A DNA stretch of 64,000 bases from an uncultured Bacilli bacterium (GTDB lineage Bacteria > Bacillota_I > Bacilli_A > RF39 > UBA660), in NCBI GenBank assembly GCA_944350495.1, contig CALVOZ010000004.1:1-64000 (forward strand). Direction: 5' to 3'. The notes under the pieces are model-generated. The model ran no database searches, was not told the origin of the DNA, and worked only from the letters and a program-made list of their open reading frames with translations. The position numbers and the translations under genes are program-made. Within the stretch, counting starts at the first letter, position 1, and each line of letters begins with the position of its first letter. This document shows, piece by piece, positions 43,960 to 53,700 of this stretch.

Positions 43960-44757
43960 TTAAATTGATATCTCACCTGTTAATACGCGTTTTAGATATT
44001 TACCAAGTAACTCAATAATATTAGCTTTAGCAACATCTTCTTTAACCGTTAAATTAACTTCACCAATCTTTTTATTACCATTCATAATTGAAACGGTTCC
44101 AATGACATCCCCCTTTTTAATTGCACTACTAATTTTACCATATTTAATTTCAAAAGTCGGAGTTATATTTGGTGACATTTTTTTATTAATTAAATTGATA
44201 TCTTCTACAGGAACAATATCGACTTGATTTTTTGTTGACTTATCTAAATTAATTGTATCTATTACTCTATCTTTAGATAATATTTTATCTAAGCGATAAT
44301 TAGCAAAGGCATAGTCTAACATACTACTTACTTCATCATTTCTAGTTGTACTACTAGGTTCACCCATAACAACCGCTATCACACGCATTCCATCTTTCTT
44401 CATAGTAGCAGTTAAACAATAACCAGAATCAACGGTATAGCCAGTTTTTAAACCATCTACCCCCTTTTTAAATCTTACTAATTTATTTGTATTAACTAAC
44501 CATGTTTGTTTATCTGTTCCTTTTCTTAAATATGTTTCATAGATTGATGAATACTCTAATATTTTTTCATGTTTTACTAATTCTTTAGCAATCATTGCCA
44601 TATCATGGGCACTAGAATAATGATTCTCTTCATCTAATCCATGACTATTTTTAAAGTATGTATCTTTGAGACCTAATTCCCGAACTTTTTCGTTCATCAT
44701 CTTAACGAAGTTTGCTTCACTGCCACCAATAGCTTCTGCTAGAGCAACAACTGCATC
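43960..44757 (-). pseudogene. dacA: dacA-like D-Ala-D-Ala carboxypeptidase, 3' part (cut by insertion)
   Basis: The C-terminal 265 residues of a penicillin-binding carboxypeptidase of the DacA/DacF type. It begins at the crossover with DAVVALAEAIGG, contains the third active-site motif KTG (in GLKTGYTVDSG) and continues through the C-terminal beta domain to EISI. The SxxK and SGN motifs are on the other fragment at 50.6-51 kb. The frame upstream of 44757 is element DNA. Joined, the gene would encode 383 residues, a normal length. As it stands, no full enzyme can be made from this locus. Confidence 0.9.
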
Positions 44758-46423
44758 CCTGGCGTTTACAGAAAAGCAGTAAAAAATTTTCCAAGTCAAA
44801 TGTTTCATCTTTTGAGTTAAATACATTTAACTTGGCATGTAATATAACCTTTTGTTTAGTTTCATCATCTTTAATTGATTCAACTTTAATATCTTCAAAA
44901 AATGTTTGAGCTAACTCTAACACCTTTTCATCATCAGAGAAAACAATAGAATTTACCTTTTCTTTAAATTCAGTAAAGTTCTTTTCACTAGACTCTTGAT
45001 TTTGTTCTTCTTCTATTAATTTTATTTTATCTTCTTCCATAGATTTAATTTGAGAGTCTAAATCATCTTTAAGAGTGTTATACTCCTGTAAATCTATTTC
45101 TTTTCTCATTCTCATCATTATAAGTTCTTTTTTCTCATTATTAACCTTAAATAACTTTTCTTTTATTTTTTTAATTTCTTTTTTATAATCTTTTTTAGTT
45201 CTAATATCACTTATCATATCATTTATTTCACTGATCAAATCATCTTGACATTCTATTATCATAGTTAATATCTTCTTACATATTTCAACAAGTTTTTCAT
45301 AATAGATAACTGGAGAATTACATCCTTCAGTTTTTTTCTTTCCATGTATTCTATAATTATTACAAGCCCAAAACTTTCTTCTTCTACTTCTAGCCCCTTT
45401 ACCAATTTGATAAGTTCCTCTTACAAATGTAGCACCATCATAATGACAATGCATTAAACCTGAAAAGGCAAACTTACTATATTTGTTATTTTTATTTATT
45501 TGGTCGTGTTTTTTACTTTTAGCATCTAATTTTTCATTAGCTCTATCCCATAATTCTTCAGAAACAATTGGTGGACAAGTTTCATTATCCTTATATACAA
45601 TCCATTCATCTCTCTTAAATTTCTTTCTTTTTCTATCGTGATAATCAACAGTAGTTTCTTTATGAGCACAGAAGTATCCTTTATATTTAGGATTTCTAAT
45701 TATATTTTTAATGACTGCACCTGCAATAGGTTTTCCTGAATAATTTGTTACTCCATATTCTTCAAACAATTTAAATCCTAATTTGTGAACACCTATATTT
45801 TCAGATACATATATTTCAAAAATCAATTTGATGAATTTTGCTTGTTCTTCATCTATTACTAACTTACCTTTATTTTTTGTATATCCATAGATATTATTAC
45901 TACCAGGAACTATTCCTTTTTCTACACTTCTCTTATATCCAAATCTAACTCTTTCAGATAATTTTCTTATTTCTTCTTGAGCAATACTAGACATAATTGT
46001 AAGTCTTAATTCTGAATCAGGTTGAAAGGTATTAATGTTATCACTTAAAAAGTGAACACCAACACCATTTGAAAGTAATTCTTGTGTATATTTAATACTA
46101 TCTAAAGTATTTCTTGAGAATCTTGATATTTCTTTTGTTAAAATCAAATCAAATTTTTTTCTTTTTGCATCATCTACCATTCTTAAGAAATCTTCTCTTT
46201 TTTTAACATTTGTACCACTAATACCTTCATCTACATATCCTTCTACAAAAGTCCAATTTTCTTGTTCTTTTATAAAATTCTCAAAATATGTTACTTGATT
46301 TTTCAAAGAATTTAATTGTTCATATCTATCAGTAGATACACGAGCATAAAATGTTACTCTTAATGGTAAATCATAAATACTTTTGCCTTGACTTAGCATA
46401 TTTCTTATAGCATATAAATCCAC
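44717..46423 (-). CDS. Large serine recombinase (integrase of the element)
   Basis: A 568-residue site-specific recombinase that would insert and excise the element. The N-terminal resolvase domain shows FYARVSTDR with nucleophile Ser30 and the Arg-rich ISRFSRNT. A recombinase domain (NKNIRNPKYKG-type, here IIRNPKYKGYFCAHK) and a zinc-ribbon region follow, in which one Cys position is Asp (LMHCHYDG). The C-terminal coiled coil runs to about 530. The gene crosses the crossover point: the last 12 residues (CSCCSSRSYWWQ) are encoded by dacA DNA. In the circular form the frame would run 33 codons further. GTG start after GGAGGTGA. Confidence 0.92.
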   Translation of the reverse strand: MDLYAIRNMLSQGKSIYDLPLRVTFYARVSTDRYEQLNSLKNQVTYFENFIKEQENWTFVEGYVDEGISGTNVKKREDFLRMVDDAKRKKFDLILTKEISRFSRNTLDSIKYTQELLSNGVGVHFLSDNINTFQPDSELRLTIMSSIAQEEIRKLSERVRFGYKRSVEKGIVPGSNNIYGYTKNKGKLVIDEEQAKFIKLIFEIYVSENIGVHKLGFKLFEEYGVTNYSGKPIAGAVIKNIIRNPKYKGYFCAHKETTVDYHDRKRKKFKRDEWIVYKDNETCPPIVSEELWDRANEKLDAKSKKHDQINKNNKYSKFAFSGLMHCHYDGATFVRGTYQIGKGARSRRRKFWACNNYRIHGKKKTEGCNSPVIYYEKLVEICKKILTMIIECQDDLISEINDMISDIRTKKDYKKEIKKIKEKLFKVNNEKKELIMMRMRKEIDLQEYNTLKDDLDSQIKSMEEDKIKLIEEEQNQESSEKNFTEFKEKVNSIVFSDDEKVLELAQTFFEDIKVESIKDDETKQKVILHAKLNVFNSKDETFDLENFLLLFCKRQGCSCCSSRSYWWQ

Positions 46424-46442
46424 TCAAATCACCTCCATTTTT

Positions 46443-46649
46443 TTATATTCTTATATCCACCTTTACTGGATAAATATAATTATTTTTTTCATTATCTATT
46501 TGGTCTTTTAATTTGTTTATTTTTTCATCACATTTTGAGATTAATGTTTCATACTCACTTATAGAAATCTCATTATTTTGATATAAATAATTTATTATTT
46601 TCTTTTGAACTTCTTTTTTTACTACTTCATAAGTAAGATTGTTGTTCAA
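46443..46649 (-). CDS. Small helical protein upstream of the recombinase
   Basis: A 68-residue protein, TTG start with GGAGGAG 8 nt upstream, 20 bp before the recombinase. It is nearly all helix (YEVVKKEVQKKIINYLYQ, then EYETLISKCDEKINKLKDQ). Small proteins at this place often belong to serine-recombinase elements and can act as accessory or directionality factors; this is inference. The helix with YETLISK resembles SHOCT-like domains. Confidence 0.55.
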   Translation of the reverse strand: MNNNLTYEVVKKEVQKKIINYLYQNNEISISEYETLISKCDEKINKLKDQIDNEKNNYIYPVKVDIRI

Positions 46650-46813
46650 AATACATTCTCCTCCTGTTTAAATGTATTAACTAAGGAACAAAAAAATTAA
46701 TAAAAAATTTATTGTTTTTCTATATATTTAATTCGTTTTATCGCATTATACACTTGATAAGATGGAGTTAAATTAGTTTTTAGGTTTATTTTTTCTTTTA
46801 TTGAAACATTTGA

Positions 46814-46840
46814 AAAGGAACAATGTTTAATTGTCCCTTT
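46814..46840 (-). terminator. Terminator after the cargo operon
   Basis: On the minus strand AAAGGGACAAT / ATTGTTCCTTTT with one mismatch and a short loop, just past the stop at 46850. It separates the cargo operon from the recombinase genes. Confidence 0.75.
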
Positions 46841-46849
46841 AACTATTTC

Positions 46850-48004
46850 TTATCTACTTTTACCTTTTAATGTTAAACTATTTGGATCAACATAAAATAC
46901 TTTGCCACCAAGTGGATTGATTTTAATATTCCCATAAACCACCCATAGTATATCACTGCTTTTTGATGGCATTACGGCACAGCCATCAGTAAAAATTATT
47001 TTAATAGATGCTTTCTTACTAAAAGAATTTACAGCAACATTAAAATCCGTTCTGCCTCTACCTTCAATTACAAAATTATCTAAATCATTTCTTTGTTTTA
47101 TCTCTTGGAACCCATAAAAATTAGTATCAAAACATCCAACTTTTATGGCATAATCATCAAAAATATTTTTACATTCTTGAAGAAATGCTTTTACAAGTTT
47201 ATCATCAACACTTCCACTTGTATCTATTAATATTTCAATGTTAGATTTACGAATTAATTCATAAGGATATTTATAAATTCCTTCTTCATCAAAGAAGCCG
47301 TTATGTAAATTATAATCTGCAGAAAACACCTTTTTCTTTTTCCTTTGTAAAAAGCTTTTCCAATCAATAATTGGTGATGCATTTCCAACACTACCTAAAC
47401 TAGCAGTTATAGGTTCTTGTTCTTGAATGCTATTTGTATATTCTTGATTATCATCATGAATCAATTTTTTATTTATCTCTGTTATATTGTACTCGTTAAC
47501 GCCTGATAAGCCTTCAGTTAAATCTTCTGCAAGTTCTTTATTCCAATGCTCATGAGTTGCTATTGTACTTTCTTGTTCATCATGTCTGTATTTTGACATT
47601 AAATCTTCACAATCTGGTCTTTTTTTAACTATTTCATAGTATTCCTCTGCACTAAATGATAATGCATCTGGACAATCAATAACTCCATCAACTAATGGAA
47701 GACCGTTCTTTCTTAAAATTTGATTTATAACAGCATCTGTAGCATAATTCCATATTTCCATATCTCTTTCTTCTAATCTAGAAAGGTGTTTTAAGGTAAT
47801 ATGCATCAATTCATGTGCTATAATAAATACTTGCTCATCTTTTGTTAAAGTTTGAAAAAAAGAAGAATTATAATATATTGTATCACCATTGATACAAGCA
47901 GTTTTTATACCATTATTTTCTATAAAATGAATATTGTTAATTAAAATTTTAAAAATTGGAAAATAGATTAAAGTTCTATCTATTACTGAATTAATATTAA
48001 ACAT
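46850..48004 (-). CDS. HExxH metallopeptidase with VWA-like domain
   Basis: A 384-residue protein. Residues 1-120 are a zinc metallopeptidase-like domain: HELMHITLKHL gives the HExxH (64-68) and a third His. Residues about 255-370 are a von Willebrand A-like domain with the metal-binding DTSGS (261-265), a conserved Thr in RGRTDF and IFTDG. This two-domain order is that of DUF2201 proteins, which occur next to MoxR ATPases; their biochemical role is unknown. It is the last gene of the three-gene cargo operon, overlapping the 123-residue gene by 8 bp. Confidence 0.82.
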   Translation of the reverse strand: MFNINSVIDRTLIYFPIFKILINNIHFIENNGIKTACINGDTIYYNSSFFQTLTKDEQVFIIAHELMHITLKHLSRLEERDMEIWNYATDAVINQILRKNGLPLVDGVIDCPDALSFSAEEYYEIVKKRPDCEDLMSKYRHDEQESTIATHEHWNKELAEDLTEGLSGVNEYNITEINKKLIHDDNQEYTNSIQEQEPITASLGSVGNASPIIDWKSFLQRKKKKVFSADYNLHNGFFDEEGIYKYPYELIRKSNIEILIDTSGSVDDKLVKAFLQECKNIFDDYAIKVGCFDTNFYGFQEIKQRNDLDNFVIEGRGRTDFNVAVNSFSKKASIKIIFTDGCAVMPSKSSDILWVVYGNIKINPLGGKVFYVDPNSLTLKGKSR

Positions 48005-48368
48005 CTATTGCTACCAAAAGACCAAATAATTCTTTAACTATATTGTCTTTACTCCCAGTTACAATTATTTTACAACTATCAGGCAGAGATACTGTCTGAT
48101 ATGACTTATCTTTTACCATATAGGATAACTTCCTTTGATTATCCATATTAATATTGTCGGTATTAATAATTATGAATTTTTTTTGAACATGATTATTGTC
48201 ATTTATAAACTTTTTTAAGGATTCAATAAATAATATTTGATTATTACTATTTATTTCAAAATATGGATTATCCTTAACAATATCTAAAATAGTTTTTTCT
48301 TTTAAATATACTGGATTATTGTTTTCAAAGATAAAATGGAAATAACGTTCTTTAGTTCTATTTTCCAT
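47997..48368 (-). CDS. 123-residue protein resembling a degenerate AAA core
   Basis: A small protein of unrecognised family between the ATPase and metallopeptidase genes, overlapping both (11 and 8 bp). Its second half reads KKFIIINTDNINMDNQRKL, then LPDSCKIIVTGSKDN. This parallels Walker B, the following helix and sensor 1 of a MoxR-type core, but with the Walker B acids replaced (IIINTDN). It also has no P-loop. It may be a dead AAA-like adaptor, much as delta-prime in clamp loaders. This is inference from pattern only. Confidence 0.45.
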   Translation of the reverse strand: MENRTKERYFHFIFENNNPVYLKEKTILDIVKDNPYFEINSNNQILFIESLKKFINDNNHVQKKFIIINTDNINMDNQRKLSYMVKDKSYQTVSLPDSCKIIVTGSKDNIVKELFGLLVAIDV

Positions 48369-50241
48369 AACTAGTTCTCCTTTCGCTTAAACTGCTTTTA
48401 GCTAATTTAAGTTTTAAAATATCTTCATCTGTATTATTAATTTCTGTCCATCTTTTCTCAAAAAGAGCTTGATATTCATTTAAATTGTTTTGTCTGATAA
48501 ATGTAAGTGCATTAATTATTTCTTCCTCAGTTATGGCTGTTGCAATTAAACAATTTATTATTATTTGACTTCGATCGTGAGTTAAATCAAAAATATCAGC
48601 AGGAATATTTCCTTTTAAAATTTCTTCAACCCCCAATTCAAAATACATTGAAATAAATTCTTCAAATTCTTTTCTATTTTTTTCATCCATATAGGGGTCT
48701 AAATATGGAAATGCTTGAATTTTTCTTGAAGCCTTTAGTTCTTCGCTAATTTTTTGATCCCAACTTCTTGGAGTTAAACTTAATGCATAGTCATAATCTC
48801 CATCTTTATCTTTAACATCTTGAATAATTTTATTTGGAAAATTATGAAGATATGCTCTTACAATTGGATCAATATTATGTTTTGAAGCCCATTTTAACCA
48901 ATCAATCGCATCTGCTGTAACTTCTAACTTCGTTAATCTACTTGCAACTTCTCCAGAAATATTAAAGGCAGCATCAGAATATTCTTCAGTATTACCTGCT
49001 AATATTATATCAACATTATCTGGAATTTCCCAACCAGCAATAGTTCGTGGATTATCAACAATACCATTAATAAATACTTGCATATTTGGTGTTAATTTAT
49101 CAAATTCATCTAATAATAAAACACATCTTTCGTTACTTTGACGACATCTATTAGCCATTTCATTCAATTTAGTATACCATTCTGGTTCTGCTGTAGCAGT
49201 TCTCCCTTTTTCATTATGTTCAACAGTTTTATCTCCATCCCTAGTAATTATTTTATCTCCTGGAATTATACTTGTCTTACCAGTAAATGTATCTGGAGTA
49301 AAAGTTGCAATGTTAAATGATAAACAATTCTTATTAATGCTTTTAGCAATTTGTGTTTTACCAATTCCTGGGTGACCTACTAAATAAGGAATTCTTTTTT
49401 CTCCCATTAAAATTCTTCTTATTTTTTGTTCAAGATTAAGTTTTTCTTTTTTCTCACCAAAAGGATTATTAACACTCGTACTTTTTTCTTGTTTTTTTTC
49501 TTGATTCACTCCTAACTCTTCAAGAAATTCATCACTTTCTAAAAATTTTGCTAGTGCTGATTTGTCATATTCACATCTGCATCTTTCAGATAGAAACAAA
49601 GGATTATTACAAATAGCCAAACCAGTTTTCTTATCCACTGTCCATGTGAGTGGTGAAACAATACCTACAAAAGTTGCTTGAACATCTAAACTATCATCAA
49701 AAGAACCATCATCTTTTTTCTTCATAAAAACATATTCTTCTCCAGTTTGCTGATTCTTGAATACTCTTAATTGAGTTTTTTTACCATCTTTTGAAAGAAA
49801 AATAGTTACTTTACGATTTGTCTCAACAATATCTCCCATCATTGAATTCATATTAATTTTTTGCAAAGCATCACTAGTAGAAACTTGAGATGTTAATCCA
49901 CTACCATACTGAACTATAAATTTGTCCTCATCTTCAGAAATAATTTGACTATCATCTTTAATTTCTGCAAATCTAATTATTGGTAAACTATAATTATAGG
50001 TATTAAAATCCCAGTTAATTTTACCCGAAACAGAACTCGTAGCAGGTATATAATAAACAGCACCTCGATTAGCAACACTATCATAATCTTTCAAAATTAG
50101 TGAAGTAAAAATATCAAAAGGTATGTCAAAATTTCGTTGTTGATCTAAGGTAAAAATTGAAGCATATTCTAGTATTCTATCTACAATTTTTCTAATATCA
50201 TCGTTTTCTAACATTCTTTTATTTAAAATACTAAATGCCAT
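48358..50241 (-). CDS. MoxR-like AAA+ ATPase
   Basis: About 627 residues. The N-terminal 270 are a unique region of mixed strands (with RCRCEYDKSALAKFL before the AAA part). The AAA+ core shows Walker A LVGHPGIGKTQ (288-296), Walker B CVLLLDEFDKL (373-382), sensor 1 IILAGNTEEYSD and the arginine-finger region GEVASRL. MoxR ATPases remodel proteins and are often paired with VWA proteins, as here. The ATG at 50241 follows GGAGG by 7 nt; longer starts add a non-family lead. First gene of the cargo operon. Confidence 0.85.
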   Translation of the reverse strand: MAFSILNKRMLENDDIRKIVDRILEYASIFTLDQQRNFDIPFDIFTSLILKDYDSVANRGAVYYIPATSSVSGKINWDFNTYNYSLPIIRFAEIKDDSQIISEDEDKFIVQYGSGLTSQVSTSDALQKINMNSMMGDIVETNRKVTIFLSKDGKKTQLRVFKNQQTGEEYVFMKKKDDGSFDDSLDVQATFVGIVSPLTWTVDKKTGLAICNNPLFLSERCRCEYDKSALAKFLESDEFLEELGVNQEKKQEKSTSVNNPFGEKKEKLNLEQKIRRILMGEKRIPYLVGHPGIGKTQIAKSINKNCLSFNIATFTPDTFTGKTSIIPGDKIITRDGDKTVEHNEKGRTATAEPEWYTKLNEMANRCRQSNERCVLLLDEFDKLTPNMQVFINGIVDNPRTIAGWEIPDNVDIILAGNTEEYSDAAFNISGEVASRLTKLEVTADAIDWLKWASKHNIDPIVRAYLHNFPNKIIQDVKDKDGDYDYALSLTPRSWDQKISEELKASRKIQAFPYLDPYMDEKNRKEFEEFISMYFELGVEEILKGNIPADIFDLTHDRSQIIINCLIATAITEEEIINALTFIRQNNLNEYQALFEKRWTEINNTDEDILKLKLAKSSLSERRTSYGK

Positions 50242-50579
50242 ATAATGCGCCTCCATTATAATAATAACATAAAATTTAGATATTTGTCTATTTTTAGGAA
50301 TAAAAATTGCAATAAATTTAAACATAATAAAGATTTATATTACCTGTTAATAAAGCAATATCTAACAATTTCAAGTAGCGATTACAGATATATTAAATAA
50401 TAAAATTAAAAAAGTTCCTATTTTTTGAACTAGGAAAAAGATGCTTTTATTTGCATCTTTGTAGATTTATATAAAATATACTAAGTCAATTTGTTATATA
50501 TATAATTTCCAATAATATGTTATGGTATATGGTTTAAATGAAGTTATATTATTAAATTGTCTTCCATAAGTCCCTACTT
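50242..50579. other. Right-end non-coding region of the element
   Basis: About 340 bp. It holds a possible promoter for the ATPase gene (TAGACA, 17 bp, TTATTA on the minus strand near 50256-50295) and two hairpins listed separately. The stretch nearest dacA encodes the recombinase extension when the element is circular (see findings). Confidence 0.45.
50407..50460 (-). terminator. Two successive terminators at the dacA-element junction
   Basis: On the minus strand, first AAGATGC / GCATCTT followed by TTTTCC (50459-50435), then AGTTC / GAACT followed by TTTTTT (50431-50405). They would stop transcription coming from the dacA 5' fragment into the element. Confidence 0.6.
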
Positions 50580-50598
50580 CTATTTTAGAAGTGCCAGT

Positions 50599-50954
50599 TC
50601 ATTGCCACTAGCAATTGTTATTCCTTTTAATAGATCATCAACACTCATTTCCTCGCCAGTTTCAAGTAATATTTGGGAACCTCCCATTCCAGATGCATTG
50701 CTGGATATGGTTATCATATCATTTAATTTAATTACATCATTTTCTAGTGCTTCCATAATAAGTAATAAACTCATCATTTTTGTCATTGAAGCAGGTGCTA
50801 ATTTCTCATGAGCATTATATTCGTATAAAATTTCTCCAGTTGACTCTTCAATAATAATAGCGCTTTTAGCATGTGGCGCTAATAAATTATCCGATGCATA
50901 TACATTATTCATAAATAATGTAGCTAACACTATAAGGCATAAAATTTTTTTCAT
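50599..50954 (-). pseudogene. dacA: dacA-like D-Ala-D-Ala carboxypeptidase, 5' part (cut by insertion)
   Basis: The first 118 residues of the carboxypeptidase: signal peptide (MKKILCLIVLATLFM to NNVYA), active-site SMTK (Ser56, Lys59) and SGN (116-118). The open frame then continues six codons into element DNA (ELALLK) and stops at 50580. Start codon with GAGGTG is intact, so a secreted 124-residue stub could be made. It lacks the KTG motif, which is 5.8 kb away. The two parts fit at GA 50599-50600. Confidence 0.9.
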
Positions 50955-50992
50955 ATTTCACCTCTATAAAATTTTATGCAAGAAAAAAAAGA

Positions 50993-53605: not shown

Positions 53606-53700
53606 ATTACCCTTTCATCGATTAGCATTACCACCTTACTATTGCAGGTTGGTATGAGTTCATTGAGCTAATTCTCTCCCTCATTCTTGATAAAATACAA
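53606..53700 (-). ncRNA. SAM-I-type riboswitch (S box) upstream of metK
   Basis: The minus strand shows the core of a SAM-I aptamer: GAGGGA, then GCTCAATGAACTCATACCAACC (K-turn and GAUGA-like loop), then GGTGGTAATGC, closed by a P1 of TTTATC with GATGAA. A terminator follows and then metK, the classic target. Details differ from the consensus (GCCC and GGTGCTAA replaced by GCTC and GGTGGTAA), so an exact class call needs a covariance model. Confidence 0.75.

Follow-up and report, generated by a model that had tools for sequence, protein, structure and literature searches.

A gene-intervening element with a large serine recombinase at an exactly restorable site in a dacF-like sporulation gene of an uncultured Bacilli bacterium

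Comparison with described gene-splitting elements

The skin element in sigK of B. subtilis and C. difficile (recombinase SpoIVCA) interrupts a sporulation gene at a precise site from which the gene can be restored. In skin-type systems a small directionality gene is located directly before the recombinase gene or overlaps it (PMC6957869). The gin element in gerE of B. cereus ATCC10987 is not of phage origin and combines a serine recombinase, GirC, with a small directionality factor, the 42-aa GirX (PMC5595907). With the SprA/SprB-type elements SPbeta in spsM and phi3T in kamA, a sporulation gene is split and then rejoined, and the recombination units are exchangeable (PMC4191935, PMC6957869). 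In mycobacteriophage BPs, attP lies within a gene, and integration alters the end of the encoded protein (PMC4557955).

The window analysed here (64,000 nucleotides of contig CALVOZ010000004.1, assembly GCA_944350495.1, from an uncultured Bacilli bacterium of the RF39 lineage) contains an element that resembles skin and gin in being a serine-recombinase element in a sporulation gene, and its anatomy is of the sigK-skin, spsM-SPbeta and gerE-gin kind. The position of a 68-aa ORF, a candidate directionality gene, also resembles that in skin. Skin, by comparison, has another target gene and another recombinase, is derived from a prophage, and its excision in the mother cell has been demonstrated, while that of the present element is predicted. 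The gin element measures 28.6 kb and carries three recombinases, whereas the element in the window measures 5.8 kb (the smallest relative 2.06 kb) and has one, the gene of which, unlike the situation in gin, crosses the att site. SPbeta and phi3T share with the present elements the exchangeability of their recombination units but are active phages, whereas phage structural genes are absent from the window element. The integration-dependent immunity of BPs is similar in that attP is located in a gene, but that gene encodes a repressor and the integrase is a tyrosine enzyme, while here the gene is that of the serine recombinase itself. The targets dacF, dacB, spoVD and spoIVA, a single dedicated recombinase clade, a minimal element of 2,056 bp and an att site inside the recombinase gene appear to be new; a literature search, with most subscription journals outside its reach, found no earlier report of these features.

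The split gene and its element

The window contains an S11 D-Ala-D-Ala carboxypeptidase gene in two parts (Table 1), the products of which matched PF00768 and PF07943. The 5' part (50954..50601) encodes 118 residues, with SMTK at residue 56 and SGN at residues 116 to 118, while KTG (residue 222) is encoded by the 3' part. The dinucleotide GA is common to both junctions of the element (50600-50599 and 44757-44756). Removal of 5,843 bp at this GA in silico joined the codons for SGN/DAVV in frame and gave an S11 ORF of 383 residues with no frameshift and no residue lost. The element coordinates (44757-50599), the base-exact crossover and the restored 383-residue protein with SGNDAVV had all been given in a preliminary description of this DNA and proved correct. 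The same description had proposed looking for an uninterrupted gene in relatives, and intact orthologues were indeed present in most of them, with identities of up to 75% and residues 1-382 aligned.

Table 1. Features of the interrupted locus in the window (slashes mark the limits of the GA core)
Feature	Position	Strand	Evidence
dacF-like gene, 5' part (signal peptide, SMTK, SGN)	50600..50954	-	ORF list, in silico join, Pfam
dacF-like gene, 3' part (D119 onward, KTG, PBP5_C domain)	43960..44757	-	ORF list, in silico join, Pfam
Sporulation-type -10 box CATAAAAT upstream of dacF	50968..50980 (approximate)	-	CATA-box scan
Intervening element, 5,843 bp (GA core counted once)	44757..50599	-	in silico join, junction comparison
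5'-side junction GGCAAT/GA/ACTGGCACTTCTAAAATAGAAGT, one attP arm inside element	50550..50640	-	junction reading
3'-side junction ACTGCTTTTCTGTAAACGCCAGG/GA/TGCAGTTGTT, other attP arm, within recombinase ORF	44730..44790	-	junction reading
Large serine recombinase, 568 aa, last residues from dacF DNA in another frame	44717..46423	-	Resolvase PF00239, Recombinase PF07508, Zn_ribbon_recom PF13408
Small ORF, 68 aa, directly upstream of recombinase, candidate directionality factor	46443..46649	-	conserved position
Circle-form continuation of recombinase frame, conserved tail of 34 residues (TGTSKIEVGTYGRQFNNITSFKPYTITYYWKLYI)	50496..50600	-	virtual circle
Cargo: DUF2201 metallopeptidase/VWA-like protein, 384 aa	46850..48004	-	profile search
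Cargo: 123-aa protein, no family assigned	47997..48368	-	profile search
Cargo: AAA ATPase, 655 aa, resembles phage ATPase family phrog_1297	48358..50325	-	profile search

The element thus carries its own site-specific recombinase, a protein with the Resolvase, Recombinase and zinc-ribbon domains of the large serine recombinases. As is typical of sites of these enzymes, attP is a dyad around the two-base GA core and is distinct from attB; both of its arms, read outward from the core, carry the same motif near AAAAAGCAGT. Precise insertion by a serine recombinase, as originally claimed, was borne out, as was the exact, restorable join.

Other classes of element were considered for the locus. The recombinase missed the curated cut-offs for the SCCmec recombinases Ccr (CcrC, 133 bits versus 900; CcrB, 124 versus 900). 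A prophage was rejected, with phage structural genes numbering zero and the recombinase, small ORF, AAA, 123-aa and DUF2201 proteins being the only products of the element. A domain search detected no conjugation genes in it, which argued against an integrative conjugative element; conjugation-type genes were recognised by eye in the element of one relative (L146). A defence role for the cargo was considered and set aside, the matches being weak and partial. The phage families nearest to the cargo triplet (46850-50325, minus strand) were phrog_1297 and phrog_1314.

A conserved small ORF was located about 10-25 bp upstream of the recombinase gene at all 29 dacF-type loci and at 27 of the 28 spoVD-type loci, and was mostly not found at those of the spoIVA type; its product is perhaps the directionality factor. 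A search of the window revealed no sporulation-type promoter ahead of the recombinase operon. A conserved leader with a terminator preceded the small ORF-recombinase operon at loci L083, L055, L148, L116 and others. It was common to dacF- and spoVD-type elements, had no match in Rfam, and was absent from the element in the window. Its possible mutually exclusive pairings are attenuator-like; a riboswitch is not proposed, as RNAalifold gave only the terminator and one hairpin with weak covariation. Elsewhere in the window, a SAM riboswitch (Rfam RF00162, 56.6 bits) was present upstream of metK at 53612-53696 on the minus strand.

The interrupted gene had been named dacA in the preliminary description, an identity rejected on the grounds of operon context, tree and promoter. 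Two other S11 carboxypeptidases are encoded in the genome. One of their genes is followed by spmA- and spmB-like genes, apparently an intact dacB-spmA-spmB cluster when read by eye, and is therefore taken as dacB; the other, on contig C5, encodes 389 aa. In sister families of the same class (G035 and G037) the orthologous gene is located directly upstream of the spoIIAA-spoIIAB-sigF-spoVA genes, and similar linkage was seen in G043, G051 and G047. Within the family of the window itself, the gene adjoining the orthologue in G076 was read by eye as spoIIAA. In the tree the window protein joined the operon-linked DacF proteins, apart from DacB, with support of 100/99. From the linkage in the sister families and this grouping the split gene is dacF-like, and by orthology it is predicted to be a sporulation rather than a vegetative wall-trimming gene.

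The promoter region agrees with this assignment. A CATA box was present 16-30 nt before the dacF start in 31 of 36 family members, compared with 16 of 201 control starts (8%; p = 6e-22), while a TATAAT box was rare (1 of 36). CATA is the -10 form of sporulation sigma factors in the B. subtilis consensus. Orthology, operon context and CATA box together point to a sporulation-specific gene as the one that is split. Spo0A and SpoVAC/SpoVAEB were present in the genome; SpoIVA had no match at 94% completeness, although most congeners have this protein. The analogy to sigK drawn in the preliminary description is closer than it proposed, as the target and its sister targets are sporulation genes.

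Recurrence and targets of the recombinase clade

Of the 386 family genomes sampled, at least 21 had dacF split at the identical codon, and so did the further congeners G002 and G008. At every junction that was read, one side showed AAT/GA and the opposite side the GA core leading into the dacF 3' part, a recurrence at one codon that is far beyond chance. The smallest element, of 2,056 bp, consisted of the small ORF and the recombinase only. Another, more distantly related group of recombinases interrupts dacF ahead of KTG, near residue 208-213, and in G379 both insertions occur, so that dacF is in three pieces. Apart from that of L155 (G379), the holder of the second insertion, every target 3' half that did not run off a contig was open. 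Open halves fit selection for reconstitution and recent insertion alike and do not separate the two. In G265 (L115, 1368-7593) an extra dacF 3' part was found a few kb after an intact dacF, as if an element had brought a replacement gene end.

The genome had been assembled as nine contigs, and an assembly or binning artefact was considered for this reason. More than 20 independent assemblies, with rabbit, goat and chicken among the gut sources, share this architecture to the base, which refutes an assembly artefact and leaves this explanation a negligible probability.

Relatives of the recombinase were searched for among 84,980 prokaryote species, and the 80 best matches were assigned to a target by the gene overlapping the recombinase 3' end. 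The targets were dacF (29), spoVD (28), spoIVA (10) and dacB (7), with 6 unassigned; 74 of the 80 best matches were in one of these four genes, and no non-sporulation target was identified. Locus L145 was counted as dacB even though the best score of its short 3' piece was to a different S11 paralogue. SpoVD was identified by the NCBIfam equivalog TIGR02214 (707 versus a cut-off of 688), SpoIVA by Pfam domains, and dacB by the adjoining SpmA-like gene. In the cultured Ruminiclostridium papyrosolvens C7 an insert of about 6.3 kb divides spoIVA, and joining the flanks restored the full SpoIVA. A sister element also interrupts spoIVA in R. sufflavum DSM 19573; the loci of these two species are L177 and L180. 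The spoIVA insertions include cultured species which we take to be spore formers, as they are usually described.

In the recombinase tree there was one clade per target site, with the window sequence as the sole exception. This recombinase nested in the clade of the dacB-SGN site and was 99% identical to that of L145, from dacB of another species. The stretch that holds the small ORF and the recombinase gene, from a little upstream of the former to the junction, shared 97.0% DNA identity with L145 over 1,955 bp; outside it the two did not align. The identity and the nesting suggest that the cassette is mobile and that the window copy, which looks recent, switched from dacB to dacF not long ago. 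The two paralogues share SGN/D.

The spoVD gene of the same genome is split too, and its pieces are spread over three contigs: C7 holds the 5' part, C9 the recombinase and C3 the 3' part. Contigs C9 and C3 overlap by exactly 77 bp, and C3 begins at the crossover; in a k-mer assembly such an overlap suggests that a second path enters the spoVD 3' part. The dacF contigs in G013 and G073 end exactly at the shared GATG. Together with the C9/C3 overlap, these breaks are what a mixture of empty and occupied sites would produce; similar breaks would result from two different elements sharing a site. Pattern scans of viral contigs revealed no empty site or excised circle for the window element: the exact attP join had zero matches, and the two matches to the attP pattern were tail genes of enterobacterial-type phages, attributed to chance.

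Further split sporulation genes were noticed. In congeners, spoVD was split near SCN/TGF in G003 (L128/L137) and G006 (L138), the latter junction holding a different recombinase, and near S/TFK in G002 (L127). In G010 (L237, 2933-5609) spoIVA was split in the ATPase domain beside a distantly related serine recombinase, and in G007 only the second part of spoIVA was seen. An IMG/VR contig (L225, 1807-8320) carried a dacB cut near SxxK and at SGN, with two different recombinases, followed by an SpmA-like gene. The presence of spoVD is reduced in RF39 (PMC10868615), and this published scarcity may in part reflect split genes missed by annotation.

The recombinase ORF overruns the junction, and in the integrated form its last residues are read from the target gene out of frame. 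In virtual circles of 10 elements, including that of the window, the frame ran for 34 more codons to the same stop. The codons of this tail beyond the attP arm had a pN/pS of 0.31, and spoIVA-type elements had an equivalent conserved tail; in several other elements the circle-form frame stopped earlier, so the full tail is not universal. A tail that is encoded only in the circle and is under selection implies that the circle form must exist and matter. As the recombinase gene spans the att site, integration replaces the tail of the enzyme.

Proposed excision and competing explanations

The reading we favour, with a probability of roughly 60%, is that of a gene-intervening integrative element at the SGN/D codon of dacF, exactly restorable, the excision of which in the sporulating cell rebuilds dacF. 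The large serine recombinase would insert the element at this codon so that the coding sequence can be restored, and dacF would stay split during growth. On sporulation, probably in the mother cell, the enzyme would then recombine both junctions, perhaps with the help of the small protein; the circle would be released and dacF rebuilt, in the way that skin restores sigK. Completion of a normal spore probably requires that the insert first be removed. Anatomy, exact join, recurrence, target specificity, intact halves and a conserved circle-form tail were observed; excision, its tie to sporulation and the role of the small protein as directionality factor are inferred.

In B. subtilis, dacF is expressed in the forespore. 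Nearly every intervening element described so far interrupts a gene of the mother cell (PMC6957869), and a forespore dacF is a problem for the favoured model since a forespore that cut out the element would pass the change on to its descendants. Unless dacF is expressed in the mother cell here, the window copy is a passenger. The position of its recombinase in the dacB clade, 99% identical to L145, likewise means that it may be a recent insertion at an alternative site and not a settled switch. The negative scans for a circle or empty site, the missing sporulation-type promoter before the recombinase operon and the lack of a SpoIVA match in the genome also speak against the favoured reading.

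The main rival is an ordinary mobile element merely sheltering in sporulation genes, with dacF off and excision rare, random or tied to transfer. We consider this quite possible, if short of probable. The occurrence of a 97% DNA-identical recombinase cassette with other cargo in dacB of another species, the target switch visible on the tree and a cargo that varies from nothing (in the 2,056-bp element) to conjugation-type genes all speak for such an element, as do the two other S11 carboxypeptidases that remain in the genome. The target halves nevertheless show no decay, all identified targets are spore-formation genes, and a dead spoIVA would be costly to those cultured hosts that are presumably spore formers.

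A vegetative phase-variation switch of cell-wall trimming, as proposed in the preliminary description, is very improbable. The anatomy is reversible, and relatives whose contigs break at the core hint at mixed states, but the target is a dacF orthologue with a sporulation-type promoter. With two other S11 carboxypeptidases in the genome, the 389-aa enzyme on C5 is the better candidate for vegetative trimming.

Returning to programmed excision, a wider proposal can be made for the whole clade, although it is doubtful at present. The clade would have become a specialist for genes that build the spore (dacF, dacB, spoVD, spoIVA), with active-site codons as frequent insertion points, and its members would be DNA-level introns of down to 2.06 kb whose removal is needed for the spore, with the tail swap making the recombinase a sensor of the integrated versus the circular state. 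If functional, this swap would let a serine recombinase register its own state by simple means. Earlier gene-splitting sporulation elements amount to a handful of cases in Bacillus and Clostridioides, while dozens of splits, in four sporulation genes of uncultured gut Bacilli and cultured Clostridia, are due to this single recombinase clade. As the clade reaches cultured Clostridia, programmed excision would be testable in culturable strains.
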